DNA of 24,022 bases. Origin: Streptomyces sp. MUM 178J. Lineage in GTDB: Bacteria; Actinomycetota; Actinomycetes; Streptomycetales; Streptomycetaceae. Under the pieces are notes generated by a model, which saw only the letters and a list, made by a program, of their open reading frames with translations, had not been told where the DNA came from and searched no databases. Each line of letters begins with the position of its first letter. Position 1 is the stretch's first letter. A program made the position numbers and the translations under genes. Of the stretch, positions 2,774 to 21,416 are shown piece after piece. The stretch is from the NCBI RefSeq assembly GCF_022414575.1, contig NZ_JADWYQ010000066.1, positions 1-24,022 on the forward strand, written 5' to 3'.

Positions 2774-3403
2774 TCAGCGGCCGGGGCGGCTCCGTGTGCC
2801 GTTGAGGAACATGTCGACGACGGACTCCGCGAAGGCCGCAGAGTCCACCGGCCGCTGCCGGAGGATCAGCCGGGAGAGCATGGGCCCGGTGAGCATCTCG
2901 ATCGCCTGGTCCACATCCAGGTCGGCGCGGAGCTCTCCGCTCTCGACGCCTTCGGACAGGGCCTGTTCGAAAGCCCTGCGCCGCTGGGCCACCACCGTCT
3001 CCTCGAAGCGCTCGACGAGATGAGGGCGGCGCGCCGCCTCGCCGACCAGGCCGGCGAGCAGCCGGTGCAGCAGGGTGTCCTGGCCGCGGTGCCGGATCTG
3101 GTCCACCAGCGCCACCAGCTTGTCGCGCAGGGGGAGCCCCTCCAGGTGCGGGACGGGCAGGTCCAGGCTGCCCAGGGCCGCAAGCACCAGCTCTTCCTTG
3201 TTGCGCCAGCGCCGGTAGACGGTGGCCCGGGCCACCCCCGCACGCTGGGCCACCAGGTCCATGGACAGATCGGCGAAGCTGCAGCCCTCCCCGAGCAGGG
3301 CCAGGGCCGCCTCCAGGATGGCGCGGTCGGCGGCGGGATCGCGTCGGCGGCCGCCCCGGGACGGGTGTCCCGGGGCGGCCGCCCGATGAACGTGCGGTGG
3401 CAT
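2774..3403 (-). CDS. TetR-family repressor, exporter-linked
   Basis: The 209-residue protein has a TetR N-terminal helix-turn-helix at about residues 27-73, including 'DLVAQRAGVARATVYRRW'. An all-helical ligand-binding domain resembling the TetR_C_11-type regulators follows. A basic, probably disordered stretch precedes the HTH. The ATG at 3403 lies 3 nt after the exporter stop codon, with GGAGG 8 nt upstream, so the two genes are co-transcribed and probably translationally coupled. The natural reading is an autoregulated efflux repressor that releases DNA when it binds the cluster product or a precursor. A matching operator sits in the exporter promoter (5150-5164). Confidence 0.9.
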   Translation of the reverse strand: MPPHVHRAAAPGHPSRGGRRRDPAADRAILEAALALLGEGCSFADLSMDLVAQRAGVARATVYRRWRNKEELVLAALGSLDLPVPHLEGLPLRDKLVALVDQIRHRGQDTLLHRLLAGLVGEAARRPHLVERFEETVVAQRRRAFEQALSEGVESGELRADLDVDQAIEMLTGPMLSRLILRQRPVDSAAFAESVVDMFLNGTRSRPGR

Positions 3404-5017: not shown

Positions 5018-5145
5018 GTTTTCCGCTCCTCGGAAGAAGAGGGTGCTGCGTGAACGGATGGACGGGGCGCTGCATGCGCGGATGGAGCGGCATGCGCGGG
5101 TGAGACGAATCAAGCGACGGCGTGGAACCGAGGGCCGTGCGCCCG

Positions 5146-5174
5146 AGGTTAGACCCGCCGTCTAGTCGAGTCAA
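5146..5174 (-). promoter_or_regulatory. Promoter of the exporter-TetR operon
   Basis: On the minus strand TTGACT (5169-5174) and TAACCT (5146-5151) are separated by exactly 17 nt and match sigma-70/HrdB-type -35 and -10 boxes. The -10 box overlaps the stop codon of the upstream phosphopantetheinyl transferase gene and the -35 box lies within its coding end. The leader to the GTG at 5017 would be about 120 nt. Confidence 0.6.
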
Positions 5175-6009
5175 TGCTGTATCGAAACATCCCTGTCTCG
5201 TAACTCGACGCCCGTCTCTCCGACACCTCCCCTGGAGGCGGCGGTGTCCGCTGGCCGGCCGGTCCGACCGCGCAGGCGACCACGAATCGCCGCGCCGCCG
5301 TGCCGCTGACGAAGCACCAGCCCGGCGCGGCGGGTGAGCGCCACCGCCTGCCGTCCCCCCGCGCCGCACCGCACGCCACGAAGGGCACACCCGACAGATC
5401 CAGCCGCAGCCCCACCCCCAGGGCCTTGGCATACGCCTCCTTCAGCGTCCAGCGGTGCACCAGCGCCCGGTTGCGCTCCGCGGCGGGCAGCCGCGCGAGC
5501 CGCGCCAACTCCTCGGGGTGACAGAACCTCTCCGGCAGCGGCGGCATCGACAGCGGCCGGTCCCGGTGCTCGGCGTCCACACCGATCCGCCGTCCACGGG
5601 CCACCCCCACCACCAGCAGATCCCCGGTGTGGCTGATGCCGACGTCGAAACCCGCGGGGGCACACACGGCAGGGCGGCCGCCCGCGCCGCGCACCAGCTC
5701 CACCAGCGAGGGGTCCGCATCCGCGGCCGCCGCCACCGCATGGCGGGCCAGCAGCCGCGAGCCGAACAGCCGTCCGCGCACCGCCGGTTCCCGCGCCGAG
5801 CGGTACCGGGCCCAGTCCGCGCCCGACAACTCCCGTGCGGGGGTTCCCGGCGCGGCGGCCCAGTCGGTCAGCAGTCCGTGGCACACGGCGTGCCCGTCGC
5901 TCAGCACACGGCCGCGGACATACCGCCACCCATGGTCCGAGCCGTCCGTCCCACTGCTGTGAGCGGCTGGATGAGGGGGCGGCAGCGGGCCGATCGAGAT
6001 TCCGGTCAT
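5149..6009 (-). CDS. Sfp-type 4'-phosphopantetheinyl transferase
   Basis: The 286-residue protein carries the core Sfp motifs: 'FDVGISHTGD' (121-130), the Mg2+-binding 'IGVDAEH' (142-148, Asp145 and Glu147) and 'WTLKEAYAK' (187-195). It transfers the phosphopantetheine arm of CoA to carrier-protein serines. Three acceptors lie in the adjacent operon: Ser72 of the first ACP, Ser961 of the PKS and Ser45 of the second ACP. The ATG at 6009 has AAGGAG 6 nt upstream and is preferred to an upstream in-frame start at 6030. The protein is about 50 residues longer than Sfp. The additions are a Pro/His-rich N-terminus and an Arg-rich C-terminal tail of about 35 residues, and that tail contains the exporter promoter. 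The gene is divergent from the biosynthetic operon. Confidence 0.92.
   Translation of the reverse strand: MTGISIGPLPPPHPAAHSSGTDGSDHGWRYVRGRVLSDGHAVCHGLLTDWAAAPGTPARELSGADWARYRSAREPAVRGRLFGSRLLARHAVAAAADADPSLVELVRGAGGRPAVCAPAGFDVGISHTGDLLVVGVARGRRIGVDAEHRDRPLSMPPLPERFCHPEELARLARLPAAERNRALVHRWTLKEAYAKALGVGLRLDLSGVPFVACGAARGDGRRWRSPAAPGWCFVSGTAARRFVVACAVGPAGQRTPPPPGEVSERRASSYETGMFRYSIDSTRRRV
5150..5164. promoter_or_regulatory. Probable TetR operator between the -35 and -10 boxes
   Basis: TAGAC (5150-5154) and GTCTA (5160-5164) are perfect 5-bp arms around CCGCC. The palindrome lies between the -35 box and the -10 box and slightly overlaps the latter, the usual place for a TetR-type operator. 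The co-transcribed TetR gene is the expected ligand-responsive repressor. Confidence 0.55.
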
Positions 6010-6225
6010 AGAGGCTCCTTCACAAGGCACCGCGTGTCAGGCAGCGGGTGGAAGACCGCTCGCGAAGCCGAGTCTGCCGCACCGCCCAGCGCCGCGACGT
6101 GCACCCCAAGTCGTGCTTTACGCGGCCTTTTCAGAGCACCCGAACGATGAGGAAAGCCGGTGGCACCACGTGCCGCTCCGGCCCTCGCACCACCCGGGCA
6201 CCACCCGAGACAGAGAGGACGTGCC
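6010..6225. promoter_or_regulatory. Divergent intergenic region between PPTase and FAAL genes
   Basis: These 216 nt must hold the promoter of the long biosynthetic operon and probably that of the PPTase gene. The least GC-rich part, around 6110-6135 (GTGCTTTACG...CTTTTCAGAG), is the best place for a -10 region. I cannot assign convincing -35/-10 boxes or SARP-type direct repeats. An in-frame GTG at 6160 also has a purine-rich GAGGAAAG before it, so an N-terminally longer FAAL cannot be excluded. Confidence 0.4.
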
Positions 6226-8079
6226 GTGGCACTGCCACCCCAGCACCGGACGTTGACGGACGCCGTACGCGCCGGCGTGGAGCACTGCCCCGAACGGGCC
6301 GCGTTGGTGTATCTGCACGAAGACGGCAGCGGAATGCGGCCCGAGCGGCTCAGCTACGCGGAACTGGACCGCCGGGCCCGGTCGATCGCCGTCCGGCTCC
6401 GCGAGGCGACCTCCGCCCGCACCGCCCGCCCCGTTCTGCTGCTCTTCCCGCCGACCGTGCAGTTCGTCACCGCCTTCCTCGGCTGCTTCTACGCCGGGCG
6501 CACCGCCATCCCCGCCCCGCTTCCCGACGAGCCGGGCGAACGCCTCGCCAGGGTCAGCGCCATCCTGCGCGACGCCTCGGCCGGCGCCGTGCTGACGCTG
6601 CCCGAGCACCGGCAGGCGCTCGCCGCCTGGCTGGCCGCCTCCGGAGAAGGCGACGTGGCATGCCTGGCCGTCGGCGGCGACGGCGAGGACCCGGCAGCGG
6701 CCGGGATGTGGACCGCGCCACGTGTGCGGGACACGGACGTGGCCTTCCTCCAGTACAGCTCGGGCTCCACCAGCGAACCCAAGGGCGTCATGGTCACCCA
6801 CGCCAATCTCGCCGCCAACCAGCAGGCCATAGGCCGGGCCATGGCCATCCCGCCGGGCGTCGTCGCCGGCAGCTGGCTGCCCCTGTACCACGACATGGGG
6901 CTCATCGGGATGACGCTGCACCCGCTGTGGATGGCGGGCACCAGCGTCCAGATGTCTCCCGTCTCCTTCATCAAGCAGCCGCACCGCTGGCTCCGCATGA
7001 TCCATGACTTCCGCGTCCAGGGCACCGCCTCGCCCGACTTCGGCTACGAACTGTGCACCCGGCGCGTCACCGAGGAGCAGTCCGCGGGGCTGGACCTGTC
7101 CAGCCTCCATGTGGCCCTCAACGGCGCGGAGCCGGTGCGCTCCGACACCCTGCGCGCCTTCACCGCCCGCTTCTCCGCCCACGGGCTGCGCCCGCAGGCC
7201 CTGGTGCCCAGCTACGGCCTCGCCGAGAACACCCTCCTGGTCTCGGGCGCGGTCACCGGGCGGCCGCCCGGCGAGCTGAAGGTCGACGCACACGCCCTGG
7301 AGCAGGACGAACTCCGCGAGCCCCGGCCCGGTCGCACCGTCAGGACCCTGGTGTCCTGCGGCACGCCGCAGGACACCGAGATCCTCATCGTGGACCCGAT
7401 GACGCTGCGCTCCCTGCCGGACGGGCGCGTCGGCGAGATCTGGCTGCGCGGCCCCTCGGCGGCCGCCGGGTACTGGAACCGGCGGGAGCTGTCCGCCGAG
7501 ACGTTCCACGCCGAGACCGCGGACGGCCGCGCCGGGTATCTGCGCACCGGCGACGTCGGCGCACTCCACGACGGGCAGCTCTACGTCACCGGACGCATCA
7601 AGGAGATGCTCATCCACTGCGGCCGCAACCTCTACCCCCAGGACCTTGAACTGGCAGTCCAGGAGATGGGCCCCGCCTTCCGGCGCGGCGGCGGCGCGGT
7701 GTTCACGGTCGGCGACCCGCATGCCGGCCGGACCGGCGTCGTCGTGGTCCAGGAACTGCGCCCCCGGTGCTATGACGAGGCGGGCCTCCCGGCGCTCGCC
7801 GTGTCGGTGCGGGCGCTGCTCAGCCGCGAGTTCCAGCTCTCCGGGGCCAGCGTGGTGCTGGTGCGCCCCGGAGCGATCCGCAAGACCACCAGCGGCAAGA
7901 CACAGCGCACGCTGATGCGGCAGCTCTTCCTCTCGGGCGATCTGCCCGTCCTCCACCAGAGTCTGGAGCCCGCCGCCGCGGCGCTGGCCGACGAACACCC
8001 GCGGGAGCCGACGGCCGCGGCAGGGCGGGCCGCGCACTCCGCGGCCACCGTGATCCCGCCGGCCGGCCCCGGCCGCTGA
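6226..8079 (+). CDS. Fatty acyl-AMP ligase (FAAL), starter loading
   Basis: This 617-residue adenylating enzyme of the ANL superfamily has a phosphate loop 'YSSGSTSEPKG' (177-187), 'WLPLYHDMGLIG' (218-228), 'YGLAENT' (330-336), 'YLRTGD' with Asp443, and the C-terminal catalytic Lys558 in 'TTSGKTQR'. 'YHDMGLIG' and 'MSPVSFIKQP' are typical of FAALs rather than acyl-CoA ligases. FAALs form acyl-adenylates from free fatty acids and pass them to an ACP rather than to CoA. The GTG at 6226 follows GAGAGGA at a good distance. An ACP gene lies directly downstream, so the enzyme should prime the pathway by charging it. The chain length accepted cannot be read from sequence. Confidence 0.9.
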   Translation: MALPPQHRTLTDAVRAGVEHCPERAALVYLHEDGSGMRPERLSYAELDRRARSIAVRLREATSARTARPVLLLFPPTVQFVTAFLGCFYAGRTAIPAPLPDEPGERLARVSAILRDASAGAVLTLPEHRQALAAWLAASGEGDVACLAVGGDGEDPAAAGMWTAPRVRDTDVAFLQYSSGSTSEPKGVMVTHANLAANQQAIGRAMAIPPGVVAGSWLPLYHDMGLIGMTLHPLWMAGTSVQMSPVSFIKQPHRWLRMIHDFRVQGTASPDFGYELCTRRVTEEQSAGLDLSSLHVALNGAEPVRSDTLRAFTARFSAHGLRPQALVPSYGLAENTLLVSGAVTGRPPGELKVDAHALEQDELREPRPGRTVRTLVSCGTPQDTEILIVDPMTLRSLPDGRVGEIWLRGPSAAAGYWNRRELSAETFHAETADGRAGYLRTGDVGALHDGQLYVTGRIKEMLIHCGRNLYPQDLELAVQEMGPAFRRGGGAVFTVGDPHAGRTGVVVVQELRPRCYDEAGLPALAVSVRALLSREFQLSGASVVLVRPGAIRKTTSGKTQRTLMRQLFLSGDLPVLHQSLEPAAAALADEHPREPTAAAGRAAHSAATVIPPAGPGR

Positions 8080-8127
8080 GGCTCCATGGCGGACTCCATG
8101 TCAGGCACCATCCAGGGAAGGGCATCC

Positions 8128-8499
8128 ATGCGCACCGACACCGACACCGACACCGTCGCCGACAGCGTCAACGACGCCTTCACCGTCGGCGGGTCCCGCA
8201 CCGACGCCCCCGGCCGGGCCAAGCCCGGCCACACCGCACGGGAACTCGAGAGCTGGCTCACCGAACGCGCGGCGTTCCACCTCCACCGCACACCCCGCGA
8301 CGTCGACCCCGGCACACCGCTGGCGGACTACGGCCTCGACTCGGTCGCCGCGCTCAGCATCTGCGGAGAGATAGAACAGCATCTGATGCTGCCCGTCGCC
8401 CCGACGATCGTCTACGACTTCCCCACGGTCCGGGCCATCAGCGCCCACCTCGCCGAGCGGCTCGGCGGCCCGGCGCATGACGCGGGGACGCCGTCATGA
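8128..8499 (+). CDS. Discrete acyl carrier protein (acyl starter ACP)
   Basis: The 123-residue protein has one carrier domain at about residues 38-112, with the phosphopantetheine site 'YGLDSVAAL' (Ser72). It should receive the acyl group from the FAAL and present it to the KS of the next protein. I prefer the ATG at 8128 because GGAAGGG lies just upstream. In-frame ATGs at 8086 and 8098 would add 14 or 10 residues with weaker sites. The N-terminal ~37 residues are low-complexity, starting with a (Thr-Asp) run encoded by ACCGAC repeats at 8134-8151, and are probably a flexible tail. Its stop overlaps the PKS start in ATGA (8496-8499). Confidence 0.88.
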   Translation: MRTDTDTDTVADSVNDAFTVGGSRTDAPGRAKPGHTARELESWLTERAAFHLHRTPRDVDPGTPLADYGLDSVAALSICGEIEQHLMLPVAPTIVYDFPTVRAISAHLAERLGGPAHDAGTPS

Positions 8500-11400
8500 C
8501 GGCACGCGAACCGATCGCGGTCGTCGGGCTCGACTGCCGCTTCCCCGGCGCCCGCGACCCCAAGGAGTACTGGGACCTGCTGATCCAGGGCAGGGACGGC
8601 ACCGGCCGGGTGCCGCAGACCCGCTGGGACGCGGCCCGCTACCACCGCACACCCTCGGCCGACGGCCCGCAGCCCGGGCGCGCCAACACCCTGCGCGGCG
8701 GCTTCATCGACGACCCCGACGCCTTCGACCCCGGCTTCTTCGGCATCTCCCCGCGCGAAGCGGTCGCCATGGACCCCCAGCAGCGGCTGCTGCTCCAGTG
8801 CTCCTGGCGCGCCGTCGAGGACGCCGCCCTGGCCCCCGCGGACCTGGCCGACACCGACACCGGCGTCTTCGTCGGCGTGATGGCCAACGAGTGGGCCTGT
8901 CTGCATCTGACGGACTACGAGAACATCACCGCGCGCCACGGCTCGGGCAACGGCTACTTCATGGGCGCCAACCGGGTCTCGTACCACCTCGACCTCAAGG
9001 GCCCCAGTCTCGCCGTCGATACGGCCTGCTCCTCGTCCCTCGTCGCCGTGCACCTCGCCCTCGCCGCCCTGCGCTCCGGCGAATGCGACTACGCCCTCGC
9101 CGCCGGCACCAACCTGATCATGACCCCGGCCATCAACATCTTCTACACCCAGGCCGGACTGTCGGCCCCCGACGGCCGCTGCAAGCCGTTCAGCTCCGCG
9201 GCGGACGGCATCGGCCGCGCCGAAGGCGTCGCCGTGCTGCTGCTGCGCCGCCTCGGCGACGCCCTCGCCGACCGCCAGCCCGTCTACGCGGTGCTCAACG
9301 AGACGAGGGTCAACCAGGACGGCCGCAGCAACGGCATCACCGCACCCAGCCGCTGGTCCCAGCAGCGGCTGATCGAGAGCGCCTGGCGGGCGGCCGGCGT
9401 CACAGCCGACGACATCCGCTTCATCGAGGCGCACGGCACCGGAACGGTCCTCGGCGACATGATCGAGGCCCAGGCCCTCGGCCGGCTCACCGCGGAGCGC
9501 GGCGCGGGCGGCAGCATCGCGCTGGGCTCGGTCAAGGGCAACTTCGGACACGCCGAAGGAGCGGCCGGCCTCGCCGGGCTGGTCAAGGCCGTGCTCGCGC
9601 TGCACCACCGCACCGTGCCGCCCAGCCGATACGCCGACGAGGAGAACCCCGAACTCCAACTGCCCACACGGAGGCTGGCACTTCTCAAAGCCCCGCAGCG
9701 GCTGCCGTCGGGCACCGTGCACGCGGCCGTCAGCAGCTTCGGCATGGGCGGCACCAACGCCCACGCCGTCCTGTCCTCGCCGCCCCGCACCCCGCACCGG
9801 TCATCCGGCCGCGCCCCCGGAGTCTTCACCCTCTCCGCCCGCACCCCCGAGCGGCTGCGGCCCAATCTGCTGGCCCAGGCCGACGCCCTCGCCCGCCAGC
9901 CCGCCGACCGGCTCGCACAGCTGTGCTGGACCAGCAACCGGGTCAAGTCCCGCCTCCCGCACCGTGTCGCCGTCGCCGCCCATGACCTGCCCGGTCTCGT
10001 CAGAGGCCTGCGCGCCGAGGCGGAACGCCACGGCCGGACGCAGAGCGGCGAGAACCCCGGCCGGGGCACGGCAGCCGCACCCGCCGTTGCCTTCGCCTTC
10101 ACCGGGCAGGGCGCCCAGCACGCCGCCATGGCCGCTGCCTGGTACACCGCCTCACCCGTGTACGCACGACTGCTCGACGAGGTCGACGAGCTGCTCCGGC
10201 CCCATGTCGGGCGCTCGCTGCGGGACGCGATCCTCGAAGGCGACGAGGACTTCCGCCGTACCGCCCTGGCCCAGCCCGCCCTCTTCGCCGTCGAGTACGC
10301 CATGGCGGGCGCCCTGGCCGATTCCGGAATCACCCCCTCCTTCGTGATCGGGCACAGCATCGGCGAGTTCGCGGCCGCCTGCACGGCCGGAGCGCTGGAC
10401 GCGGCCGACGCCGCCCGGCTCGTCGCCCGCCGCGGAGCGCTCATGGACGCCCTGCCCGACGGCGGCGGCATGCTCGCCGTGCCCCTGGACGCCGCCGAGG
10501 CCGGCAGGCTGCTCCAGGGCCGGCCGCGCCTCGGACTCGCCGCCGTCAACGCCCCCGGCCGCACCGTCGTCGCCGGCGACCTCGCCGAACTCGCCGCGCT
10601 GCGCGCCGCACTGGCCGGGCGGGGGGTCACCGCCCGCCCCCTGGACGTCTCCCACGCCTTCCACTCCCCGCTGATGCTGCCCATCGTCGACGCCTTCCGC
10701 CGCGAGAGCGCGCAACTCGTCCCGCGTACGCCGGGACTGCCCTTCTACTCGACCGTCCACGGCCGGCGCAGCGCCGCCGGCGAGCCGCTCGACGCGGACT
10801 ACTGGGCGCGGCAGATCACCGCGCCCGTGCGGTTCGCCGACGCGGCGGCGGAACTGCTGGCCGCGGGCCCCACCCACATCGTGGAGATCGGGCCGCGTGC
10901 GGTCCTCACCCCGCTGCTGGCCCGGCTGCGGCAGGACGACGCCGACGGCGCCGCGGTGAGCTGCCACGCCGCCCACCCGGGGGAGCACGCCGCCCGCTGC
11001 CGACCGCAGCAGCTCCTCGGCGAGCTGTGGTGCGCCGGCCTCAGCCCGCGCTGGGACGCGGTGTACACGGCGGAGGACCAGGTGCCCCGCAGGCTCCCCC
11101 CGTACCTCTTCGACGACACCTTCCGCGCCTGGCGCTCCGCCGCGCCGCCGCGCACTGCCCCCGAACTGACCGCGTCCACCCCCGTCATCCCGCAGGGCGC
11201 GGCAGCCGCGGCCCCGCCCGGCAGGGGCCGCGGAGAGTCGTGCCCGCCGGCGACGGCCGACGACCTCCCCCATTCGGTCGGCGAACTGACGCACCGACTG
11301 GTGTGTCGCGTCGGCGGGCACGAACCGGCCGCCGTGCACCGCGGCTCCCGGCTGCACGAGGACCTCGGGTTTGACTCCATCCAGGTCATGGAACTCAAGG

Positions 11401-11639
11401 CGCGCATCGAGAAGGAGCTGCCCCGGCTCGGCAGCCTGCCCGTCGAGGACCTCCTCGCCAGCCTCAGCACGCTCGGCGACCTCATCGACTATCTGAGCGA
11501 ATGCCTCCTCACGGACCCCGGCGACGTCACGGCAGACCGCCCCACCGCGGACGGCGCCGCGAGCACCGCTGCGGACCGCGCCCCGGACCCGCCCGTGGAA
11601 CGGCTCAGGGACTCCCTTCCGGAAGGAACCCCCTCATGA
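8496..11639 (+). CDS. Type I polyketide synthase, KS-AT-ACP, non-reducing single module
   Basis: This 1047-residue single module has three domains. KS (about 4-427) has active-site Cys178 in 'VDTACSSSL', His313 in 'EAHGTGT' and His352 in 'GNFGHAEG'. AT (about 530-815) has 'GQGAQ', nucleophile Ser621 in 'GHSIGE' and 'HAFH' (720-723), the malonyl-CoA signature. The ACP (about 925-1003) has Ser961 in 'LGFDSIQVMEL'. There is no KR, DH, ER or thioesterase domain. The module should take the fatty acyl chain from the free ACP, add one malonyl unit and leave an unreduced beta-ketoacyl thioester on its own ACP. That is the substrate tetronate-forming KAS III enzymes use. A 44-residue Ala/Pro/Asp-rich tail follows the ACP. 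ATGA overlaps couple both ends to neighbours. Confidence 0.93.
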   Translation: MTAREPIAVVGLDCRFPGARDPKEYWDLLIQGRDGTGRVPQTRWDAARYHRTPSADGPQPGRANTLRGGFIDDPDAFDPGFFGISPREAVAMDPQQRLLLQCSWRAVEDAALAPADLADTDTGVFVGVMANEWACLHLTDYENITARHGSGNGYFMGANRVSYHLDLKGPSLAVDTACSSSLVAVHLALAALRSGECDYALAAGTNLIMTPAINIFYTQAGLSAPDGRCKPFSSAADGIGRAEGVAVLLLRRLGDALADRQPVYAVLNETRVNQDGRSNGITAPSRWSQQRLIESAWRAAGVTADDIRFIEAHGTGTVLGDMIEAQALGRLTAERGAGGSIALGSVKGNFGHAEGAAGLAGLVKAVLALHHRTVPPSRYADEENPELQLPTRRLALLKAPQRLPSGTVHAAVSSFGMGGTNAHAVLSSPPRTPHRSSGRAPGVFTLSARTPERLRPNLLAQADALARQPADRLAQLCWTSNRVKSRLPHRVAVAAHDLPGLVRGLRAEAERHGRTQSGENPGRGTAAAPAVAFAFTGQGAQHAAMAAAWYTASPVYARLLDEVDELLRPHVGRSLRDAILEGDEDFRRTALAQPALFAVEYAMAGALADSGITPSFVIGHSIGEFAAACTAGALDAADAARLVARRGALMDALPDGGGMLAVPLDAAEAGRLLQGRPRLGLAAVNAPGRTVVAGDLAELAALRAALAGRGVTARPLDVSHAFHSPLMLPIVDAFRRESAQLVPRTPGLPFYSTVHGRRSAAGEPLDADYWARQITAPVRFADAAAELLAAGPTHIVEIGPRAVLTPLLARLRQDDADGAAVSCHAAHPGEHAARCRPQQLLGELWCAGLSPRWDAVYTAEDQVPRRLPPYLFDDTFRAWRSAAPPRTAPELTASTPVIPQGAAAAAPPGRGRGESCPPATADDLPHSVGELTHRLVCRVGGHEPAAVHRGSRLHEDLGFDSIQVMELKARIEKELPRLGSLPVEDLLASLSTLGDLIDYLSECLLTDPGDVTADRPTADGAASTAADRAPDPPVERLRDSLPEGTPS

Positions 11640-12658
11640 CCGCACCCGCCGTGCACCTCGCCTCGGTCGGCACCTGTCTGCCGGGGGACCCGGTGGACAA
11701 CGCGACGCTCGCCAAGCTGGTCGGCATCGACGAGCAGTGGGCCGAGATGTTCATCGGGAACGCCGCCCGCCACTTCGCCGTCGACCTGGCCACCGGCCAG
11801 GTCCGCGACACCCTCGCCGACATCGCCGCCGCGGCCGCCGACCGGGCCCTGGCCCAGGCCGGACTCGAGGCCGCCGACATCGACTGCGTCGTCATGGGCA
11901 CCGCCACCCCCGACCAGCTGATGCCCGCCACCGTGAACCTGGTCGCCGACCGGCTCGCCATCGACAACGTCCCCACCTACCAGCTCCAGTCCGGCTGCGC
12001 CGGCGCCTTCCAGGCACTCGACGTGGCCCGCTCCCTGCTGCTCGCCGAACGCTGCGCCACCGTGCTCGTCATCGGCGGCGACGTCTGCGCCAAACACCTG
12101 GAGACCGACTACGACCCCGCCTCCCGAAGCTCCGCCGAACTCGTCAACTACGCCCTGTTCGGCGATGGAGCCGGGGCCGCGGTGCTGACCGCGGACCCCC
12201 TCGGCGAGTCCCTCGCCGTCCACCAGATCCTCAACCGGCTGGTGGGCCTCGGCAGGGAGCCCGGGCAGGTCATCGACTGGTTCGGGCTCGGCGACCGGCA
12301 CAGCGACCGCACCGCCGTCTTCGAGGACTACAAGGCGATCGAGTCCGCCGTGCCCCTGCTGGCCCGGCAGATGTTCTGGGAGCTCCTCGACGACGTCGGC
12401 TGGCGTGCGGAACAGGTGGACTATCTGCTGCCCCCGCAGCTCTCCGCCCGGATGAGCGAGAGGATCTCCGCCGCCATGCCCGCCCCGGACGCCGTACGCG
12501 TCAACGTCGTCGGCTCCGTCGGCAACAACGGCAACGCCCTGCCGTTCCTCCAACTCGCCGAGCTCCTCCAGCGGTGGCGGGGGCCGGGACGCGTCGCCGC
12601 CGTCGCCGTCGAGTCCAGCAAATGGATCAAGTCAGGTCTCGCCCTGGAGCGCATATGA
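11636..12658 (+). CDS. KAS III-like tetronate-forming condensing enzyme (RkD/AbyA1 type)
   Basis: The 340-residue protein has the thiolase fold of 3-oxoacyl-ACP synthase III. Cys121 in 'LQSGCAGAFQAL' is the nucleophile, and 'LFGDGAGAAVL' (174-184) is the conserved central loop. In RK-682 biosynthesis the family member RkD joins a beta-ketoacyl thioester to glyceryl-ACP, forming the C-C and C-O bonds of the tetronate ring. The neighbours here (FkbH, glyceryl ACP, beta-ketoacyl-producing PKS) match that role. One oddity is clear: where FabH has 'PHQAN' with catalytic His244, this protein has 'PPQLS' (266-270). Asn297 in 'VGNNGNA' keeps the exact 30-residue spacing seen between FabH His244 and Asn274. 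The C-terminal 'GGG' of FabH is also missing, replaced by 'ESSKWIKSG'. GGAAGGA precedes the ATG, which overlaps the PKS stop. Confidence 0.88.
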   Translation: MTAPAVHLASVGTCLPGDPVDNATLAKLVGIDEQWAEMFIGNAARHFAVDLATGQVRDTLADIAAAAADRALAQAGLEAADIDCVVMGTATPDQLMPATVNLVADRLAIDNVPTYQLQSGCAGAFQALDVARSLLLAERCATVLVIGGDVCAKHLETDYDPASRSSAELVNYALFGDGAGAAVLTADPLGESLAVHQILNRLVGLGREPGQVIDWFGLGDRHSDRTAVFEDYKAIESAVPLLARQMFWELLDDVGWRAEQVDYLLPPQLSARMSERISAAMPAPDAVRVNVVGSVGNNGNALPFLQLAELLQRWRGPGRVAAVAVESSKWIKSGLALERI

Positions 12659-12682
12659 CCCTCAGAGCGCATATGACGACGA
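12647..12682 (+). repeat. 18-bp tandem duplication across the FkbH start codon
   Basis: GAGCGCATATGAC occurs at 12647-12659 and again at 12665-12677, giving a period of 18 bp. Each copy contains an in-frame ATG (12655 and 12673) preceded by an (A/G)GAGCGCAT-like sequence, so the FkbH gene has two equivalent starts six codons apart. Only the first overlaps the upstream stop codon. Confidence 0.75.
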
Positions 12683-14664
12683 CCGAACACGACCATGCGC
12701 CGCCCCCCTCCGCGCCCGCCCCCGGATCCGACGCCGCCGGACCCCCGCGCACCGGCGGCGACGGCATCGGCGACCACAGGGGCGGCGACGCACTCGCCGC
12801 GCTGCGCGCCGCCTACGCCGCGGGACGACTGGAGGCCGAGTACGACACCGTCCGCACCCTCCTCGCCCGTCTGCCCGAGCGCCAACTGGCCGCCGCCGGA
12901 CAGCTGCTGGCCCGCCTCGACCGCTCGCTGGTCCGAAGCCGCCACCCCGCGACCCCGACGCTCGCCGTCCGCATCACCGGCCAGTCGACCGTCGGGCCCC
13001 TCGTCGCCCCGCTCACCGCACAGCTCGCCCGCCACGGGATCCTCCTCGCCCCCGTGGTCTCCCCGTACGGCTCCTGTCTGCACGATCTGCTCGCCCCACG
13101 GGCAGCCGCCCCGGACGCCCCCGGACTCACCCTCTGCCTTCTCGACGCCCACACGGTGTTCGAGGAAGTCCCCTCGCCCTGGCGCGTCGCCGACGTCGAA
13201 GCCGCGGTCCGCTCCCGGCTCGAACTGCTCGGCAGAGCCGTCCGCACCCACCAGGAAGGCGACGGCGGGCCACTGGTCCTCAACACCGTGCCGCTGCTGC
13301 GCGACCACACCCACCAGCTCGTCGACCTGCGGTCCAGGGCCGCCCTCGGCGCGGTGTGGCGCGAGTTCAACACCGGTCTGCTCGCCCTCGCCCAGCACCA
13401 CCCCGGCCTGGTCGTCATCGACCTCGACCCGCTGATCGCCCAGGGAATCCCCGCGTACGAGCCGCGCACCGCCGTCTACGCCAAGGCGCGGCTCGGCGAC
13501 CGGCTGCTCGCCGCCTACGCCCGCGAAGCCGGGCACCTGGCGCGCGCCCGGCTGGGAAAGACCCGCAAATGCCTGGTGCTGGACCTCGACGGCACACTGT
13601 GGGGCGGCGTCCTCGGCGACGACGGACCCGACGGGATCGAGATCGGCTCCGGGCTGCGCGGCGAGGCGTACGCGGAGTTCCAGCGGACGCTCAAACAGCT
13701 CTCCTCACAAGGGGTGCTCCTGGCCGTCAGCAGCAAGAACGACGCGGACAACGTGCTCAGGGCACTGCGCGAACACCCCGCCATGCCGCTGCGCGAAGGC
13801 GACTTCATCCAGATCAACGCCAACTGGCGGCCCAAGCACGACAATCTGCGGGACATCGCCGACAGCGCCAACCTGGGACTCGACGGCTTCGTCTTCGTCG
13901 ACGACAGCTCCTTCGAACGCGGCCTGGTCCAGGAGCGGCTGCCCGAGGTCGCGGTCGTCGCGGTCGACGAGGAACCCGCCCTGCACACCCCCGCGCTCCT
14001 GGCCGACGGCTGGTTCGACGTCACCGATCTCACCGAGGAGGACCGGGAGCGCACCGCCCGCTACCGCACCGAGGCCAAGCGGCGCGAACTGCGCGAGGAC
14101 GCCCCCTCGTACCAGGAGTACCTGAACGGCCTCGACATCGAGGCGTCCCTGTCCCCGCCCACCCCGTCGGAGCTCACCCGGGTCGCCCAGCTCACCCTGC
14201 GCACCAACCAGTTCCACCTGGCCACCGAGCGGCTCCGGGCAGACGACGTCCAGCGTCTGTGCGCCCGGCCCGGCCACCGGGTGCTCGCGGTACGGGCCCG
14301 TGACCGCTTCGGCGACCACGGCCTCGTCGGCGTCGTCTTCCTGCGCCGTGACGGGGCCGTCCTGCGGATCGACAACTATGTGCTGAGCTGCCGGGTGTTC
14401 TCACGCGGCATCGAGAGCGCCTGTCTGACCGCGGTCCTCGAGCACGCACGCGCCACCGGCGCCCGCAGTGTGCTCGCCCGCTATCTGCCCTCCCCGCGCA
14501 ACGCCGCCTTCGCCGGCTTCTACACCGACCACGGCTTCGCCTCCGAGGGCGCCGGTCACGCCGACGACGACGCCTGCTTCTTCCGGCACGGTCTGCACAC
14601 CCTCCCGCCCCCGCCCGCGCACATCCGTCTGCACGCCGACTTCGAACAGGAACACCAGCCATGA
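12655..14664 (+). CDS. FkbH-like glyceryl transferase/phosphatase
   Basis: The 669-residue protein is a full-length FkbH-family enzyme. After a disordered Pro/Gly-rich start (1-45) there is an N-terminal domain of about 100-295 that resembles an SGNH-hydrolase fold. A HAD domain follows, with motif I 'LDLDGTLWGG' (309-318, Asp310 and Asp312), motif II in 'VSSKND' (358-363) and the acidic motif 'FVDDS' (414-418 region). A GNAT-like C-terminal domain lies at about 505-645. Family members dephosphorylate 1,3-bisphosphoglycerate and transfer the glyceryl unit to an ACP. Here the acceptor is the ACP encoded immediately downstream. Translation can start at either of two duplicated ATGs (12655 or 12673). 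The first forms an ATGA overlap with the KAS III stop and has GGAG 5 nt upstream. Confidence 0.93.
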   Translation: MTLRAHMTTTEHDHAPPPSAPAPGSDAAGPPRTGGDGIGDHRGGDALAALRAAYAAGRLEAEYDTVRTLLARLPERQLAAAGQLLARLDRSLVRSRHPATPTLAVRITGQSTVGPLVAPLTAQLARHGILLAPVVSPYGSCLHDLLAPRAAAPDAPGLTLCLLDAHTVFEEVPSPWRVADVEAAVRSRLELLGRAVRTHQEGDGGPLVLNTVPLLRDHTHQLVDLRSRAALGAVWREFNTGLLALAQHHPGLVVIDLDPLIAQGIPAYEPRTAVYAKARLGDRLLAAYAREAGHLARARLGKTRKCLVLDLDGTLWGGVLGDDGPDGIEIGSGLRGEAYAEFQRTLKQLSSQGVLLAVSSKNDADNVLRALREHPAMPLREGDFIQINANWRPKHDNLRDIADSANLGLDGFVFVDDSSFERGLVQERLPEVAVVAVDEEPALHTPALLADGWFDVTDLTEEDRERTARYRTEAKRRELREDAPSYQEYLNGLDIEASLSPPTPSELTRVAQLTLRTNQFHLATERLRADDVQRLCARPGHRVLAVRARDRFGDHGLVGVVFLRRDGAVLRIDNYVLSCRVFSRGIESACLTAVLEHARATGARSVLARYLPSPRNAAFAGFYTDHGFASEGAGHADDDACFFRHGLHTLPPPPAHIRLHADFEQEHQP

Positions 14665-14915
14665 ATCCGAACGCGAACACCGTCAGCGTGGCCGATGCCG
14701 CCGAGTTCTGCGCCCTGGTCACGGAGGAGCTCGGAGTGGCCCTCACACCACAGGACCTGGACCGGCCCCTGGACGACTTCCCGGAGTGGGACTCCGTGTA
14801 TCTGCTGCGCCTGGTCACCGTAGTGGAGAGCGTCACCGGCCGGCGCATCCCGGTGGCCGATCTGATCGAGGCCGCCACCTTCCGCCAGATGCACGAGGCG
14901 GCGGTGCGCGCATGA
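14661..14915 (+). CDS. Discrete acyl carrier protein (glyceryl-ACP)
   Basis: This 84-residue single-domain carrier protein has Ser45 in 'PEWDSVYLL' as the phosphopantetheine site. The 'EWDS' context differs from the 'GLDS/GFDS' context of the other two carriers in this operon and suits recognition by a different loading enzyme. It follows FkbH directly, as glyceryl-ACPs do in tetronate and glycolate-extender loci, so it most likely carries the three-carbon glyceryl unit that forms C-4, C-5 and the hydroxymethyl carbon of the ring. ATGA overlaps join it to FkbH (14661-14664) and to the next small gene (14912-14915). Confidence 0.92.
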   Translation: MNPNANTVSVADAAEFCALVTEELGVALTPQDLDRPLDDFPEWDSVYLLRLVTVVESVTGRRIPVADLIEAATFRQMHEAAVRA

Positions 14916-15094
14916 CCGCCGTCGACCGGCATCTCGTCGACCGCCGCACCGGTGCGCCGGGACGCTGCCTGTACCTCAGGGCGCTCTTCCTCGACACCCC
15001 GCTTGTCCTGGTCTGGGACCCCGGGCTGGCGCGGCGGGCGGCCGGGGCCATGGGGCGGCTGGTGCGCAGGGCCGGAGCCAAGGGGGGCCGATGA
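14912..15094 (+). CDS. Unrecognised 60-residue protein in the tetronate operon
   Basis: This small gene is supported by its position. Its ATG overlaps the glyceryl-ACP stop (14912-14915) and its TGA overlaps the thioesterase start (15091-15094), both as ATGA. The protein starts MTAVDRHLVDRRTG and has a central hydrophobic stretch, 'LYLRALFLDTPLVLVW' (20-35). A short amphipathic, Arg/Ala-rich helix follows and ends 'RRAGAKGGR'. The hydrophobic stretch is interrupted by Arg, Asp and Pro, so a transmembrane helix is doubtful. I recognise no family. It may be a small partner of an operon enzyme, or a coupling cistron that keeps ribosomes moving to the thioesterase gene. Confidence 0.6.
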   Translation: MTAVDRHLVDRRTGAPGRCLYLRALFLDTPLVLVWDPGLARRAAGAMGRLVRRAGAKGGR

Positions 15095-15912
15095 CCGCCG
15101 CCGCATCCGCCGAGCCGGCGTGCGCGGCCCGAGCGACGCCCGCCTGCCTGGTGCGCGCGCCCCGTGAGAACGCCCCGCTGCGCCTGCTCTGCTTCCACCA
15201 CGCGGGCGGCGGCGCGTCGTTCTTCGCACCGTGGCCCGGCCGGGTCGTGCCATCCGTCGACGTGCTGCCCGTCCAGCTCCCGGGGCGCGAAGCCCGCTAC
15301 CGGGAGCCGCGGTTCGACGACGTCGGGCGGCTCGCCGAGGCGCTGGTCCGCGAGCTGGAGCCCTGGCTCCGGGAACCGTACGCCTTCTACGGGCACAGCA
15401 TGGGGGCCCTGGTTGCGTTCGCGGTCGCGGCGGCCCGGGAGCGCGCGGGCGGGCGCGCGCCGTCGGCCCTCTTCGTCGGCGCGTACGCGGCGCCGCACCG
15501 CACACCGCCGCTGCCGCCCGCCGACCGGTACGGGGACGCGGAGCTCGCGCGCTTCCTCGTCGACGTCGGGGGGCTGAGCCCCGAGTTCCTGGGAAGGGAC
15601 GAGTGGCTGAGCGCGCTGCTGCCCGTCGTCCGCGACGACCTGCGCATCTGCGCCAGCCATCGGAAGGCCGGGCTCGTCGTGCCCGCACGGCCTTCGCTCG
15701 ACGTCCACGCCTTCGCGGGCGCGGACGACACGCTGGTCGACCCCGAGGCGGTACGCGCCTGGGAGCGGTACGCCCGCACCTTCCGCCTCACCCGTGTCCC
15801 CGGCGGGCACTTCTTCCCCCGTGAGGCGCCGGCTCCCTTCTTCCGGGAGCTCAACGCCGCGCTCGTACGGCTCATGCCGGGGCGGGCGGGGCGATCCGCG
15901 AGACCCGGCTGA
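15091..15912 (+). CDS. Type II thioesterase
   Basis: The 273-residue alpha/beta-hydrolase is of the GrsT/TesA type. It has 'LCFHHAGGGASFF' (33-45), the nucleophile elbow 'YGHSMGAL' with Ser103, 'GADDTLV' with Asp213, and His240 in 'PGGHFF'. Free-standing enzymes of this type remove wrongly loaded or stalled acyl groups from carrier proteins. Here they would serve the PKS ACP and the two free ACPs. It is unlikely to release the product, since ring closure by the KAS III-like enzyme already frees the chain. It is the last gene of the operon. Its final 41 bp overlap the tail of the convergent lactonase gene, so there is no intervening terminator. Confidence 0.92.
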   Translation: MTAAASAEPACAARATPACLVRAPRENAPLRLLCFHHAGGGASFFAPWPGRVVPSVDVLPVQLPGREARYREPRFDDVGRLAEALVRELEPWLREPYAFYGHSMGALVAFAVAAARERAGGRAPSALFVGAYAAPHRTPPLPPADRYGDAELARFLVDVGGLSPEFLGRDEWLSALLPVVRDDLRICASHRKAGLVVPARPSLDVHAFAGADDTLVDPEAVRAWERYARTFRLTRVPGGHFFPREAPAPFFRELNAALVRLMPGRAGRSARPG

Positions 15913-16732
15913 TCCGGCGGGCGATCTCCTGGGCGTTCTTCTCGTACAGCGCGGGCTGGCCCCCGATGCCCGGCATGATCCACTCGGTCCCGTGCTCCGA
16001 GCGGTCGGCGAAGGTCAGGCCCCGGGCGTCGGGGCGCAGCCCGGTCACGGTGAGGCAGAACGGCTCCACATACTCGATCTCCCTGCGGGAGGTCAGCCGG
16101 AACGGCCGGTCATGGCCCGGGTAGATGACGTCGGCCAGGTCCACCACCCGGTCGATGCTGCGTACGGCCTGCTCCACATCCCAGAACACCAGCGGGTTGC
16201 GGCGGGTCCTGGCGACCTGGGCGAAGTGCAGCGCATCGCCCGTGATCACGCTCCGGCCGGCGTCGGTCTCGACGACCACGCCGACGCTGCCCGGTGAATG
16301 GCCGGGCAGGGCGAGGATGTGCACGCCGGGTATCACCTCGTGGCCGTCCCGCACCTCGCGGATGGGCAGCTGCTCCAGGAGCAGCCCCGTCCAGGAGGGC
16401 GTGGCCCAGTCGTTGGCGTGGGGCGTGTGGGCGTAGCGGCGTTCGGCCGCGTGGATCAGCAGCGTCGCATGCGGGAAAAGATCGATGTTCTGCACATGGT
16501 CCCAGTGGGCGTGAGTGAGCACCACGGTGTCGATGTCCGGGGCGGCGAGCCCGTGCGAGGCGAGCGCCTCCCACAGGAAGGGCCGCCGCCCGACATGGGC
16601 GGCGTCGACGAGGATGTTCCGGCGCTCGCCCGTGCCGGCGCGCCCCCGGATCAGGAACACTCCGCAGAAGGCCGGATACCCCTGGTCGGTGTCGATGGCG
16701 TAGCCCGGCAGCAGTATGTCAACGGTGGGCAT
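15872..16732 (-). CDS. Metallo-beta-lactamase-fold lactonase (AHL-lactonase-like)
   Basis: The 286-residue protein has the dinuclear metal site of the AiiA/AttM group: 'THAHWDH' (73-79; His74, His76, Asp78, His79), His145 in 'PGHSPGS', Asp166 in 'TGDALHF' and His207 in 'YPGHDRP'. Relatives open lactone rings such as N-acyl homoserine lactones and gamma-butyrolactone. The ATG at 16732 has AGGGGAG upstream. It starts 27 nt after the CoA-ligase stop, so it is the last gene of the leftward transporter-thiolase-ligase operon. Its substrate is not readable from sequence. A signalling lactone, the cluster's own tetronate or a dietary lactone are all possible. The 3' end overlaps the thioesterase gene by 41 bp. 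Confidence 0.87.
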   Translation of the reverse strand: MPTVDILLPGYAIDTDQGYPAFCGVFLIRGRAGTGERRNILVDAAHVGRRPFLWEALASHGLAAPDIDTVVLTHAHWDHVQNIDLFPHATLLIHAAERRYAHTPHANDWATPSWTGLLLEQLPIREVRDGHEVIPGVHILALPGHSPGSVGVVVETDAGRSVITGDALHFAQVARTRRNPLVFWDVEQAVRSIDRVVDLADVIYPGHDRPFRLTSRREIEYVEPFCLTVTGLRPDARGLTFADRSEHGTEWIMPGIGGQPALYEKNAQEIARRISRVSRIAPPAPA

Positions 16733-16759: not shown

Positions 16760-18739
16760 TCATCTGGGCTGCGAACGCACCGCGGCCAGGATCGCCTCCA
16801 TGACGCGGGCATCGACGAGCGAGGACAGGTCGCCGGGCGGGTCGCCGCTGATCAGGTCGCGGATCAGACGGCGCATCACCTTGCCGTTGCGTGTCCTGGG
16901 CAGGCCCGGAACGGCCACCACGCGGCTGGGCCGGAAGGCCGGGCCGAGGGCCGCCGCCACCCGCTCGCGTATGCATGCCGACTCCGCCTCGGCGAGCGGC
17001 CCTTCCCGGGTCACGACGAAGCACCAGAGCGACTCGCCCTTGACCGGGTGCGGCACGCCCACCGCGGCCGCCTCCACGACGCGGGGGTGGCCGAGTACCG
17101 CCTGCTCCACCTCGGCGGGGCCCAGGCGTTTGCCCGCGACCTTGATGACGTCGTCCATACGGCCGTGTACGAACCACTCGTCGCCGACGCGAGAGGCGAG
17201 GTCCCCGTGGGACCACAGGCCCGGCCGCCGCCGGAAGTAGGTGTGGGCGAACCGCCCCGGGGCACGCCACAGGCCCCGGGTCATGCCGGGCCAGGACTGC
17301 TTGACGACCAGTTCGCCCTTCTCGCCTTCGGCCGCCGGCTCGCCCGCGGCGTCCACGATCGCGGCGTCGACGCCCAGGCAGGGTCCGGAGAAGCTGCACG
17401 GGGACTGCGGCAGGGTGGGCGCCGAGCCCAGCAGGGAACCGCCGACCTCGGTGCCGCCGCTGATGTTGATGACGGGGCACCGTTTGCCGCCGAACTCCGC
17501 GGAGTACCAGTGCCAGGCGTCCTCGGTCCACGGCTCGCCCGTGGAGCCGAGGATGCGCACGCGGCGCGGCGCGGCGGCGTCCGGCAGCCGGCGGCCCATC
17601 AGGGACCGCGACAGGCTGGGGGAGCTGCCGAAGACGGTGACGGCGTGGTCCTCCAGCAGCCGCCACAGCCGGGTGGGGGCAGGGTGGTCGATCGCGCCGT
17701 CGTACGCGAGGACGCTCGCGCACGCCAGCGTGCTGCCCACGGCGACGAGCGGGAACATCACCCAGCCCGGGTCGGTGACCCAGAACACCACGTCGCCGGG
17801 TCTGACGTCGAGGTTGTAGCGGACCTCGGAGCCGACCTGCACCGGGAACCCGCCATGGGTGTGCACGGCTCCCTTGGGCCGGCCCGTGGTGCCGGAGGTG
17901 TGCAGCAGCAGAAACGGCGCGGCGGCGGGGAGAGACACCCGGGGACACGGCGGTGACGCGGTGAGCTCCTCCCAGCGCACGGTCTCCGGCCGGGGTGCGG
18001 CCCGGCCGGAGACCGGCCTGACTCCACCCGGGCTTTCCGGGAGGCTTTCCGCGCCGTCGCGGCCGACGACGACGAGATGCCTGACCGTGGTCGCCTCGGC
18101 GGCGGCCCGGCGGGCGATCGCCGCCATGTCGTGCCGTACGCCGCGCCGTGCCGTGGCGTCGGCGGTGACGAGCACCTTGGCCCGGGCGTCGGCCAGCCGC
18201 TCTGCCAGCGCGGCGACGCCGAAGCCGGAGAACATCGGCACCAGCACCGCGCCCATGTGCGCGCAGGCGAAGAGCAGTTCGAACGCCTCGCGCCCCGGCG
18301 GCAGGTAGGCGCCGACCCGGTCGCCCACGCCGATGTGCAGCGCCCGCAGCCCCGAGGCGATCCTGGCGCAGCGCTGGGCCAGCTGCCGGTAGTCGAGGAG
18401 CCCTCCGGTCCCGTCCTCGGTCTCCCAGCGAAAGGCGATCGAGTCGCCGCGGCCCTCGCTGATGTGGCGTTCCAGGCAGGAGTCCACCAGATTGGTGCGG
18501 CCGCCAGGGAACCAGCGGGTGGTCGCGATGCGGCGGTCCTCGCCGCGGATCCGGAGCGGCGGGACATCCCAGACGACGCCGATGTCCCGCATGGCGTGCG
18601 TCCAGAACCAGTCCGGGTCGGCGACGGAGCGCCGCTGCAGTTCGCGATAGCCGTCGACGCCGAGTTTCCGGCACAGCACGGCGACGTTGCTGTGCTCCAG
18701 CAGCTCCTGCGTCGGATGCCAGGCGTGGTCGGGCGCCAT
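16760..18739 (-). CDS. Acyl-CoA synthetase, acetoacetyl-CoA-synthetase-like
   Basis: The 659-residue ANL enzyme has an acetyl-CoA-synthetase-type N-terminal segment ('YRELQRRSVADPDWFW', 31-46). It also has the phosphate loop 'TSGTTGRPKG' (281-290), 'SGGTEVGG' (427-434), 'WSHGDLA' (509-515) and catalytic Lys620 in 'PRTRNGK'. Length and N-terminal domain place it with acetyl/propionyl/acetoacetyl-CoA synthetases rather than long-chain ligases. It should convert a small carboxylic acid, quite possibly a beta-keto acid, to its CoA thioester. Its start overlaps the thiolase stop as TGATG (one shared base), so the two genes are tightly coupled and probably consecutive in one route. Exact substrate is inference. 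Confidence 0.88.
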   Translation of the reverse strand: MAPDHAWHPTQELLEHSNVAVLCRKLGVDGYRELQRRSVADPDWFWTHAMRDIGVVWDVPPLRIRGEDRRIATTRWFPGGRTNLVDSCLERHISEGRGDSIAFRWETEDGTGGLLDYRQLAQRCARIASGLRALHIGVGDRVGAYLPPGREAFELLFACAHMGAVLVPMFSGFGVAALAERLADARAKVLVTADATARRGVRHDMAAIARRAAAEATTVRHLVVVGRDGAESLPESPGGVRPVSGRAAPRPETVRWEELTASPPCPRVSLPAAAPFLLLHTSGTTGRPKGAVHTHGGFPVQVGSEVRYNLDVRPGDVVFWVTDPGWVMFPLVAVGSTLACASVLAYDGAIDHPAPTRLWRLLEDHAVTVFGSSPSLSRSLMGRRLPDAAAPRRVRILGSTGEPWTEDAWHWYSAEFGGKRCPVINISGGTEVGGSLLGSAPTLPQSPCSFSGPCLGVDAAIVDAAGEPAAEGEKGELVVKQSWPGMTRGLWRAPGRFAHTYFRRRPGLWSHGDLASRVGDEWFVHGRMDDVIKVAGKRLGPAEVEQAVLGHPRVVEAAAVGVPHPVKGESLWCFVVTREGPLAEAESACIRERVAAALGPAFRPSRVVAVPGLPRTRNGKVMRRLIRDLISGDPPGDLSSLVDARVMEAILAAVRSQPR

Positions 18740-21317: not shown

Positions 21318-21354
21318 GGTGTCACCGGCCCCTCGGTAGACCCCGCAACAAGAA

Positions 21355-21372
21355 CGGAACGGTACCGTTCCG
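21355..21372. promoter_or_regulatory. TetR operator O1: perfect 18-bp palindrome
   Basis: CGGAACGGTACCGTTCCG is a perfect palindrome. It lies a few bases downstream of the proposed transcription start of the transporter operon, where a bound repressor would block initiation. It is the first of two similar sites in the divergent region. Confidence 0.8.
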
Positions 21373-21387
21373 CCTTCCTTGGCCGGG

Positions 21388-21416
21388 AAGCTACACCCGG
21401 GAAGAGCGAAACGCAA
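21388..21416 (-). promoter_or_regulatory. Promoter of the transporter-thiolase-ligase-lactonase operon
   Basis: On the minus strand TTGCGT (21411-21416) and TAGCTT (21388-21393) are separated by 17 nt, matching sigma-70/HrdB-type boxes. Operator O2 overlaps the -35 box and operator O1 lies just past the expected start point. Confidence 0.55.

Follow-up and report, generated by a model that had tools for sequence, protein, structure and literature searches.

An eight-gene operon of Streptomyces sp. MUM 178J that probably makes an RK-682-like tetronate from a fatty acid

What is made by an operon that sets a fatty acyl-AMP ligase (FAAL), a single polyketide synthase (PKS) module and an enzyme like ketoacyl-ACP synthase III (KAS III) side by side? 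The question is raised by contig C66 (NZ_JADWYQ010000066.1) of the 6.63-Mb genome of Streptomyces sp. MUM 178J; this entire contig of 24,022 bases is the stretch of DNA analysed here, referred to below as the window. Eight genes, all on the + strand, occupy positions 6160-15912. A first-pass annotation, made from the sequence alone, had listed them as one operon in the order FAAL, acyl carrier protein (ACP), PKS, KAS III-like enzyme, FkbH, second ACP, small protein and type II thioesterase (TE), and family scans, motifs and coordinates bear this out. It had begun the operon at 6226, which is an alternative GTG start of the FAAL gene only; the start chosen here is 6160. From the gene content, a fatty acid is most likely converted by this cluster to a small tetronate of the RK-682 family, and we put at roughly 80% the probability that its product is an RK-682-like 3-acyl-5-hydroxymethyl tetronate.

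The gene at 11636-12658 (+) encodes the predicted tetronate synthase, a KAS III-like protein by its Pfam family, whose best match both by sequence and by fold is AbyA1 (52% identity). The HQAN motif of FabH is replaced by PQLS, i.e., the FabH histidine is gone; the score against the curated model of canonical FabH is 115.7 bits (cut-off 292.1), and the protein does not keep the Cys-His-Asn triad. We therefore place it, by comparison with AbyA1, among the predicted AbyA1/RkD-type condensing enzymes. The KAS, FkbH and ACP genes adjoin in the operon. Such a KAS-FkbH-ACP cassette is described for tetronate clusters (PMC4979870; the papers cited here by PMC number are represented by excerpts), and a set of FkbH, ACP and FabH-like genes is common to these clusters (PMC4979870, PMC5819245, PMC7489565). 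No methoxymalonyl-ACP dehydrogenase or O-methyltransferase was found among the seven family-assigned operon genes, the genome beyond the window not having been searched. Since AbyA1 is the best structural match, the cassette is present and no methoxymalonyl-type genes were assigned, the tetronate route put forward in the first-pass annotation is supported at the level of predicted gene functions.

The FAAL assignment of the first gene (6160-8079, +; AMP-binding domain, 207 bits) is likewise a prediction. Among its ten top NCBIfam models, seven bear the name fatty-acid--AMP ligase or fatty acyl-AMP ligase, every one scoring below its cut-off, and its best PDB matches include FAALs. The stretch from YGLAE to VGEIW is 67 residues long, against 41 at the corresponding place in the window's own CoA ligase, and we take this longer stretch to be the FAAL insertion, going by the position that we presume for it. 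The protein was thus assigned to the FAALs rather than to the CoA-ligase type, with the activity predicted. It is followed by a discrete ACP (8086-8499, +; PF00550, 48.4 bits; GLDS), the presumed fatty-acyl acceptor, and by a single non-reducing KS-AT-ACP module (8496-11639, +; KS 293, AT 205 and ACP 35 bits). The KS carries DTACSS and the AT carries GHSIG and HAFH, the latter of which we take to be of the malonyl type. Downstream of the synthase lie the putative FkbH glyceryl transferase/phosphatase (12655-14664, +; TIGR01686, 299.8 bits, cut-off 146.65; DLDGTLW), for which the Pfam scan gave no match, and a second discrete ACP (14661-14915, +; PF00550, 24.3 bits, cut-off 20.8; EWDS), presumably the glyceryl carrier. 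All carrier-protein sites have DS. A 60-aa protein without a Pfam or NCBIfam match (14912-15094, +) and a type II TE (15091-15912, +; PF00975, 129.1 bits; GHSMG) complete the operon. From the PKS gene onward each chosen start falls in the last 4 bases of the preceding gene, and these overlaps suggest translational coupling.

In the proposed route, the FAAL would activate a free fatty acid as the adenylate and load it onto the 8086 ACP, as expected from the families of both proteins. The KS-AT-ACP protein, whose domain order is directly seen, would then add one unreduced malonyl unit, presumably in a single round, yielding a beta-ketoacyl thioester. FkbH, by the function reported for its family in the literature, would transfer a glyceryl unit from 1,3-bisphosphoglycerate onto the 14661 ACP. 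The AbyA1/RkD-type KAS III would join both parts through C-C and C-O bonds and release the tetronate, a reaction likewise known from the literature, while the type II TE would probably clear stalled carriers.

Whether the 5-hydroxymethyl group stays on the ring was approached by comparison with related loci. Of the 87 loci examined, 80 come from named genomes (the best 80 of 98) and six from plasmid records, and one is a further cluster of the same genome, on contig C4; gene presence was scored only within the stretch fetched for each locus, and some stretches end early. By gene content, 12 loci fall into the clade of the window, 30 carry FAAL, ACAD and an Agg4-type gene, nine FAAL and ACAD only and one FAAL and an Agg4-type gene; the remaining 35 have no FAAL match in their stretch, some of them being cut short. 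FkbH is present in 64 of the 87 and was not seen within the fetched stretch in the other 23. Loci were labelled B, D, F or M by gene content, M including loci merely cut short; in the synthase tree D is a clade (100/100), B and M are not clades (8 changes each), and the synthases of Methylosinus and Pseudalkalibacillus are long branches whose placement is unsure. By synthase, the nearest named relative is Streptomyces sp. PR69 (96% identical). In the genus, 66 of 392 sampled genomes have the synthase (E up to 1e-60) and 11 have its clade type, at an identity of at least 78%. A FAAL-tetronate layout also occurs beyond Actinomycetota, in a metagenome-assembled genome of a Xenococcaceae cyanobacterium (L074), with matches to FAAL, ACAD, ACP, PKS, KAS (53%), FkbH, E2, FMO and an Agg5-type gene.

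Of the 12 further clade loci, 11 repeat the order FAAL-ACP-PKS-KAS-FkbH-ACP-TE; the exception, L020, is a 6.5-kb contig that shows only ACP-PKS-KAS-FkbH. FAAL is accordingly scored in 11/12, ACAD and Agg4-type genes in 0/12 each; among the FAAL-bearing loci outside the clade (n = 40), ACAD occurs in 39 and an Agg4-type gene in 31. A metallo-beta-lactamase-fold (MBL) hydrolase, a CoA ligase and a thiolase are each found in 11 of the 12 sister loci, L020 again being the one that lacks them; with the cut-offs applied, none of the 75 stretches outside the clade has window-type genes for these three. The 60-aa protein has tblastn matches, short or weak (45-86%), in nine of the 11 sister loci showing the region. 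The sister open reading frames listed for it are 68-83 aa long, with a conserved stretch around ALFLDT.

Down to an E of 1e-3, the window is free of matches to queries of the Agg5, Agg4 and ACAD types, and within the fetched stretches none of the 12 sister loci holds an Agg4-type gene. Of the 11 clade loci in which the interval from ACP to TE is visible, nine (L011, L018, L019 and L021-L026) hold an AbyA5/Agg5-type gene there, each an open reading frame without stops; the L011 copy matches AbyA5 at 1.5e-76. With the catalytic residues of AbyA5 assigned by motif position, the histidine is lost in all nine copies and the serine also in two of them. The histidine is retained in all 50 other AbyA5-type proteins of the set, and AbyA5 itself shows the His motif. 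The nearest relative (L017) has no Agg5-type gene between the small reading frame and the TE gene, and L027 has neither the Agg5-type gene nor the small reading frame. A search for Agg4-type genes (E up to 1e-10) covered the hosts of 11 of the clade loci, ten of them as genomes and that of L011 through its plasmid record alone; it was negative in ten hosts and positive in PR69, where the gene sits on a different contig from the clade cluster. The His-less genes would be conserved pseudoenzymes or decaying genes. Because no Agg4-type gene was found and the Agg5-type genes are His-less in the sisters and absent in the window, we take the acetylation-elimination branch to have decayed in the clade and the 5-hydroxymethyl group to be retained. 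The clade may serve as a natural test of ring decoration: this group is expected to persist wherever Agg4 is missing and Agg5 is either damaged or lost. The first-pass claim that an Agg4/AbyA4-type acetyltransferase is missing holds for the window and the 12 sister loci and does not hold for the genome, an Agg4-type gene being present on contig C4. Its expectation that the 5-hydroxymethyl group stays gains from the clade-wide absence of Agg4 and from the His-less or missing Agg5, with the C4 gene standing as a caution.

Several points weigh against a 3-acyl-5-hydroxymethyl tetronate as the product. The FAAL scores below the cut-off of each NCBIfam FAAL model shown, and the second ACP barely exceeds the Pfam cut-off. 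The sequence does not reveal how long the chain is or how often the KS acts; the starter acid, the one round of extension and the mass of the product are predictions. Contig C4 of the genome carries a second tetronate cluster with an Agg4-type gene (6.1e-37), and, as RK-682 was accepted by the agglomerin enzymes Agg4 and Agg5 (PMC4979870), the C4 pair could act in trans on the hydroxymethyl group. Nine sister loci keep the His-less Agg5-type genes as intact reading frames, so that a non-catalytic function, and not simple decay, may lie behind them. L027, moreover, has an additional match to the Agg5 query, with an E between 1e-6 and 1e-3.

In one alternative a tetronate is still formed, with the KS acting repeatedly or the FAAL taking another carboxylic acid, such as a branched, aryl or short one. 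The starter and the rounds are not fixed by the sequence, and the nearest solved relatives of the FAAL are variously named polyketide synthase, saframycin synthetase, acyl-CoA synthase and FadD32. However, a single module with no reductive domains and the ACAD count of 0/12 in the clade fit a plain saturated chain and one extension, and we regard this alternative as unlikely.

A second alternative concerns the ring: the Agg4/Agg5-like pair of C4 would acetylate the product of the window and eliminate acetate, giving an agglomerin-like 5-methylene tetronate. The C4 cluster spans about 178.8-195 kb (L009, L010), with matches to FAAL, ACAD, ACP, KS-AT-ACP, KAS (52%), FkbH and ACP, and further to an Agg4-type E2, PPT, FMO and an Agg5-type hydrolase; its own predicted product is a modified, agglomerin-like tetronate. 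Both genes of the pair are thus at hand, the Agg5-type copy of C4 retaining Ser/Asp/His, PR69 likewise holds an Agg4-type gene on another contig, and the tolerance of Agg4/Agg5 for RK-682 speaks in the same direction. On the other side, the two clusters may not be expressed at the same time, and the clade overall has lost the branch, including nine host genomes without an Agg4-type match; such processing seems to us quite improbable. That FkbH supplies a hydroxymalonyl- or methoxymalonyl-ACP extender and the KAS III starts the chain, with no tetronate formed, is very improbable. Methoxymalonyl-ACP pathways do use FkbH proteins as well (PMC7489565). Against this reading, the seven family-assigned operon genes include no dehydrogenase or O-methyltransferase, the one left over encodes just 60 aa, the KAS is nearest to AbyA1 and lacks the FabH histidine, and the AT has a malonyl-type motif.

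The likeness of the operon to the RK-682 system of Streptomyces sp. 88-682 lies in the KAS III-like, FkbH and ACP genes and in the predicted 3-acyl-5-hydroxymethyl tetronate, judged by the published gene roles (RkD and RkE, PMC5819245; RkF as the ACP, PMC4979870). A 'minimal set' of six genes for RK-682 is reported second-hand in PMC3625739; it equals the count of FAAL-ACP-PKS-KAS-FkbH-ACP here, which may be a coincidence. In the abyssomicin system, the source of AbyA1, the closest solved structure to the window synthase, FkbH-like and ACP genes follow AbyA1, and the cluster has a large modular PKS together with AbyA4 and AbyA5 (PMC3625739), whereas the window has a FAAL and one module and neither the AbyA4 nor the AbyA5 type. 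Agglomerin shares the simple acyl chain on a tetronate; its cluster, from Pantoea PB-6042, has seven genes, the accession HF565364.1 and homologues in Dickeya (PMC11350110), and its exocyclic olefin is made by Agg4 and Agg5 (PMC4979870), types not found in the window. The FAAL-ACAD tetronate clusters (e.g., L076 of S. fildesensis) have FAAL, ACP, single PKS and KAS in common with it, as well as FkbH and ACP where in reach; unlike them, the clade lacks ACAD and Agg4-type genes, and among the fetched stretches it alone carries the MBL, CoA-ligase and thiolase genes.

RK-682-like clusters have already been met by genome mining. A cluster of S. fildesensis So13.3, to which L076 would correspond, is reported to have over 50% gene similarity to that of RK-682 (PMC6522549), and a cluster of Streptomyces sp. 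HM190 is reported as highly similar to one of strain 88-682 (PMC7333363); the route proposed here is therefore of a known kind. No report linking FAAL to tetronates was found in the searched literature, which misses most subscription journals. PMC10951976 was rejected as such a link, as the two terms belong to different compounds in its excerpt. Foxicin clusters, which hold FkbH and are widespread in Streptomyces, were set aside as PKS/NRPS giants with a fused FkbH and no KAS III among the gene-table entries shown (PMC5318452), and so was a chain fusion of the malleicyprol type (PMC12304814, in part), there being no C or reductase domain here. RK-682 is termed a protease, kinase and phosphatase inhibitor (PMC6522549), and 3-acyl tetronates of this kind inhibit phosphatases and other enzymes. 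A compact, intact FAAL and one-module operon with its synthase firmly tied to AbyA1 would be a tractable source of analogues through the choice of starter.

The first-pass extent of the cluster, 6226-15912, proved too narrow, as the conserved block covers approximately 210-22063 and exceeds the biosynthetic operon. Upstream, on the - strand, lie an Sfp-type phosphopantetheinyl transferase (5149-6030; PF01648, 63 bits, cut-off 25; 1.3e-6 against Sfp in PDB, with WTLKEA at the usual place), an exporter of the major facilitator superfamily (MFS), DHA2/EmrB type (3407-5113; TIGR00711, 251.8 bits, cut-off 230.2), and a TetR-like regulator (2774-3403) that matches the second TetR of the window at 31% and its counterparts in sister loci at 70-95%. 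A two-domain alpha/beta hydrolase (ABH; 1302-2519, -) follows, its start at 2519 being derived from the 405-aa database protein P0240, and then a SARP-type regulator (210-1025, -; BTAD, 149.9 bits) with copies 67-71% identical in five sister loci, where other flanks may stop short. Downstream, also on the - strand, are the MBL-fold hydrolase (15872-16732; PF00753, 76.3 bits; HAHWDH), an acyl-CoA synthetase resembling acetate/acetoacetate--CoA ligases (16760-18796; PF00501, PF13193, PF16177), a BktB-like beta-ketothiolase (18739-19917; TIGR01930, 423 bits, cut-off 240.55) and an MFS transporter resembling organic-acid uptake proteins (19911-21416; PF07690, 150 bits). A TetR regulator (21446-22063, +; PF00440 and PF16859 above cut-off) is divergent from this MFS operon, and a 496-aa frame of coding-like composition (22413-23903, -) lies near the contig end.

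Several of these names come from models below their cut-offs. For the MBL protein, in which the HxHxDH motif occurs in 12 of 12 copies, the window included, the top NCBIfam model is the AiiA lactonase at 58.6 bits, far below the cut-off of 375; the synthetase reached 480 bits with PRK00174 and 378 with PRK03584, each below cut-off, the thiolase 438 bits with its top model PRK09051 (BktB; cut-off 565), and the top models of the uptake-like MFS, TIGR00893 and TIGR00881, are each below cut-off as well. The ABH has the two-domain fold and the Ser-Asp-His residues of the C-C hydrolases DHPONH, AntI and Ayg1, and is likened to the C-C cleaving 2,6-dihydroxypseudooxynicotine hydrolase, AntI and Ayg1p. 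Its Asp/His motifs were unmatched in L017, L019 and L022, which end inside the gene, and in L021, where one pattern letter differs. The ABH was rejected as an Agg5 homologue, as AbyA5 is not among its six sequence matches, unlike the case of the L011 gene; AbyA5 has the ABH fold at a lower Z (30.8).

The ABH, thiolase and MBL genes travel with the operon in the 392-genome sample, as they occur in the same genomes. The ABH, at an identity of at least 75%, is present in exactly the 11 genomes of the synthase clade, other genomes holding copies of 48-52%; the thiolase, at least 74%, is found in the same 11 of the 392, and the MBL, at least 72%, in ten of those 11 and in no others of the sample, two more having matches of 41-42%. 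The exception is G168, in which these genes are spread over separate contigs. Identities in sister loci run in parallel (MBL 73-93%, thiolase 74-93%, synthase 78-96%).

The linked MFS/thiolase/CoA-ligase/MBL operon is a possible product-turnover module. Here, lactone opening would fall to the MBL hydrolase, and cleavage of the 3-acyl tetronate, with its ring intact or already opened, to the C-C hydrolase (1302-2519); the fragments would be brought back to acyl-CoA and acetyl-CoA through the uptake-like MFS carrier, the CoA ligase and the BktB-like thiolase. That the clade clusters carry a dedicated system by which their own product is made, exported, recaptured and recycled is a tentative idea that we hold to be doubtful. 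If true, such a compound would fit a signal or a reversible lipid store and not a one-way antibiotic, and if the linked operon degrades the product, one bacterium would carry, next to each other, the means of building a tetronate and of breaking it down.

Three minor observations touch these genes. The host of L018 has an ABH match with one in-frame TGA, outside the stretch of the locus match. A second DHPONH-like hydrolase, not found in the window's genome, is 50-53% identical to the ABH and adjoins the MFS/thiolase operon in seven of 11 sister hosts (e.g., L011:22848-23879 and L027:17997-19022). Elsewhere in the window's genome, a fabH-like match with one in-frame TAG (C32:32050-32613, L105) is probably a gene remnant.

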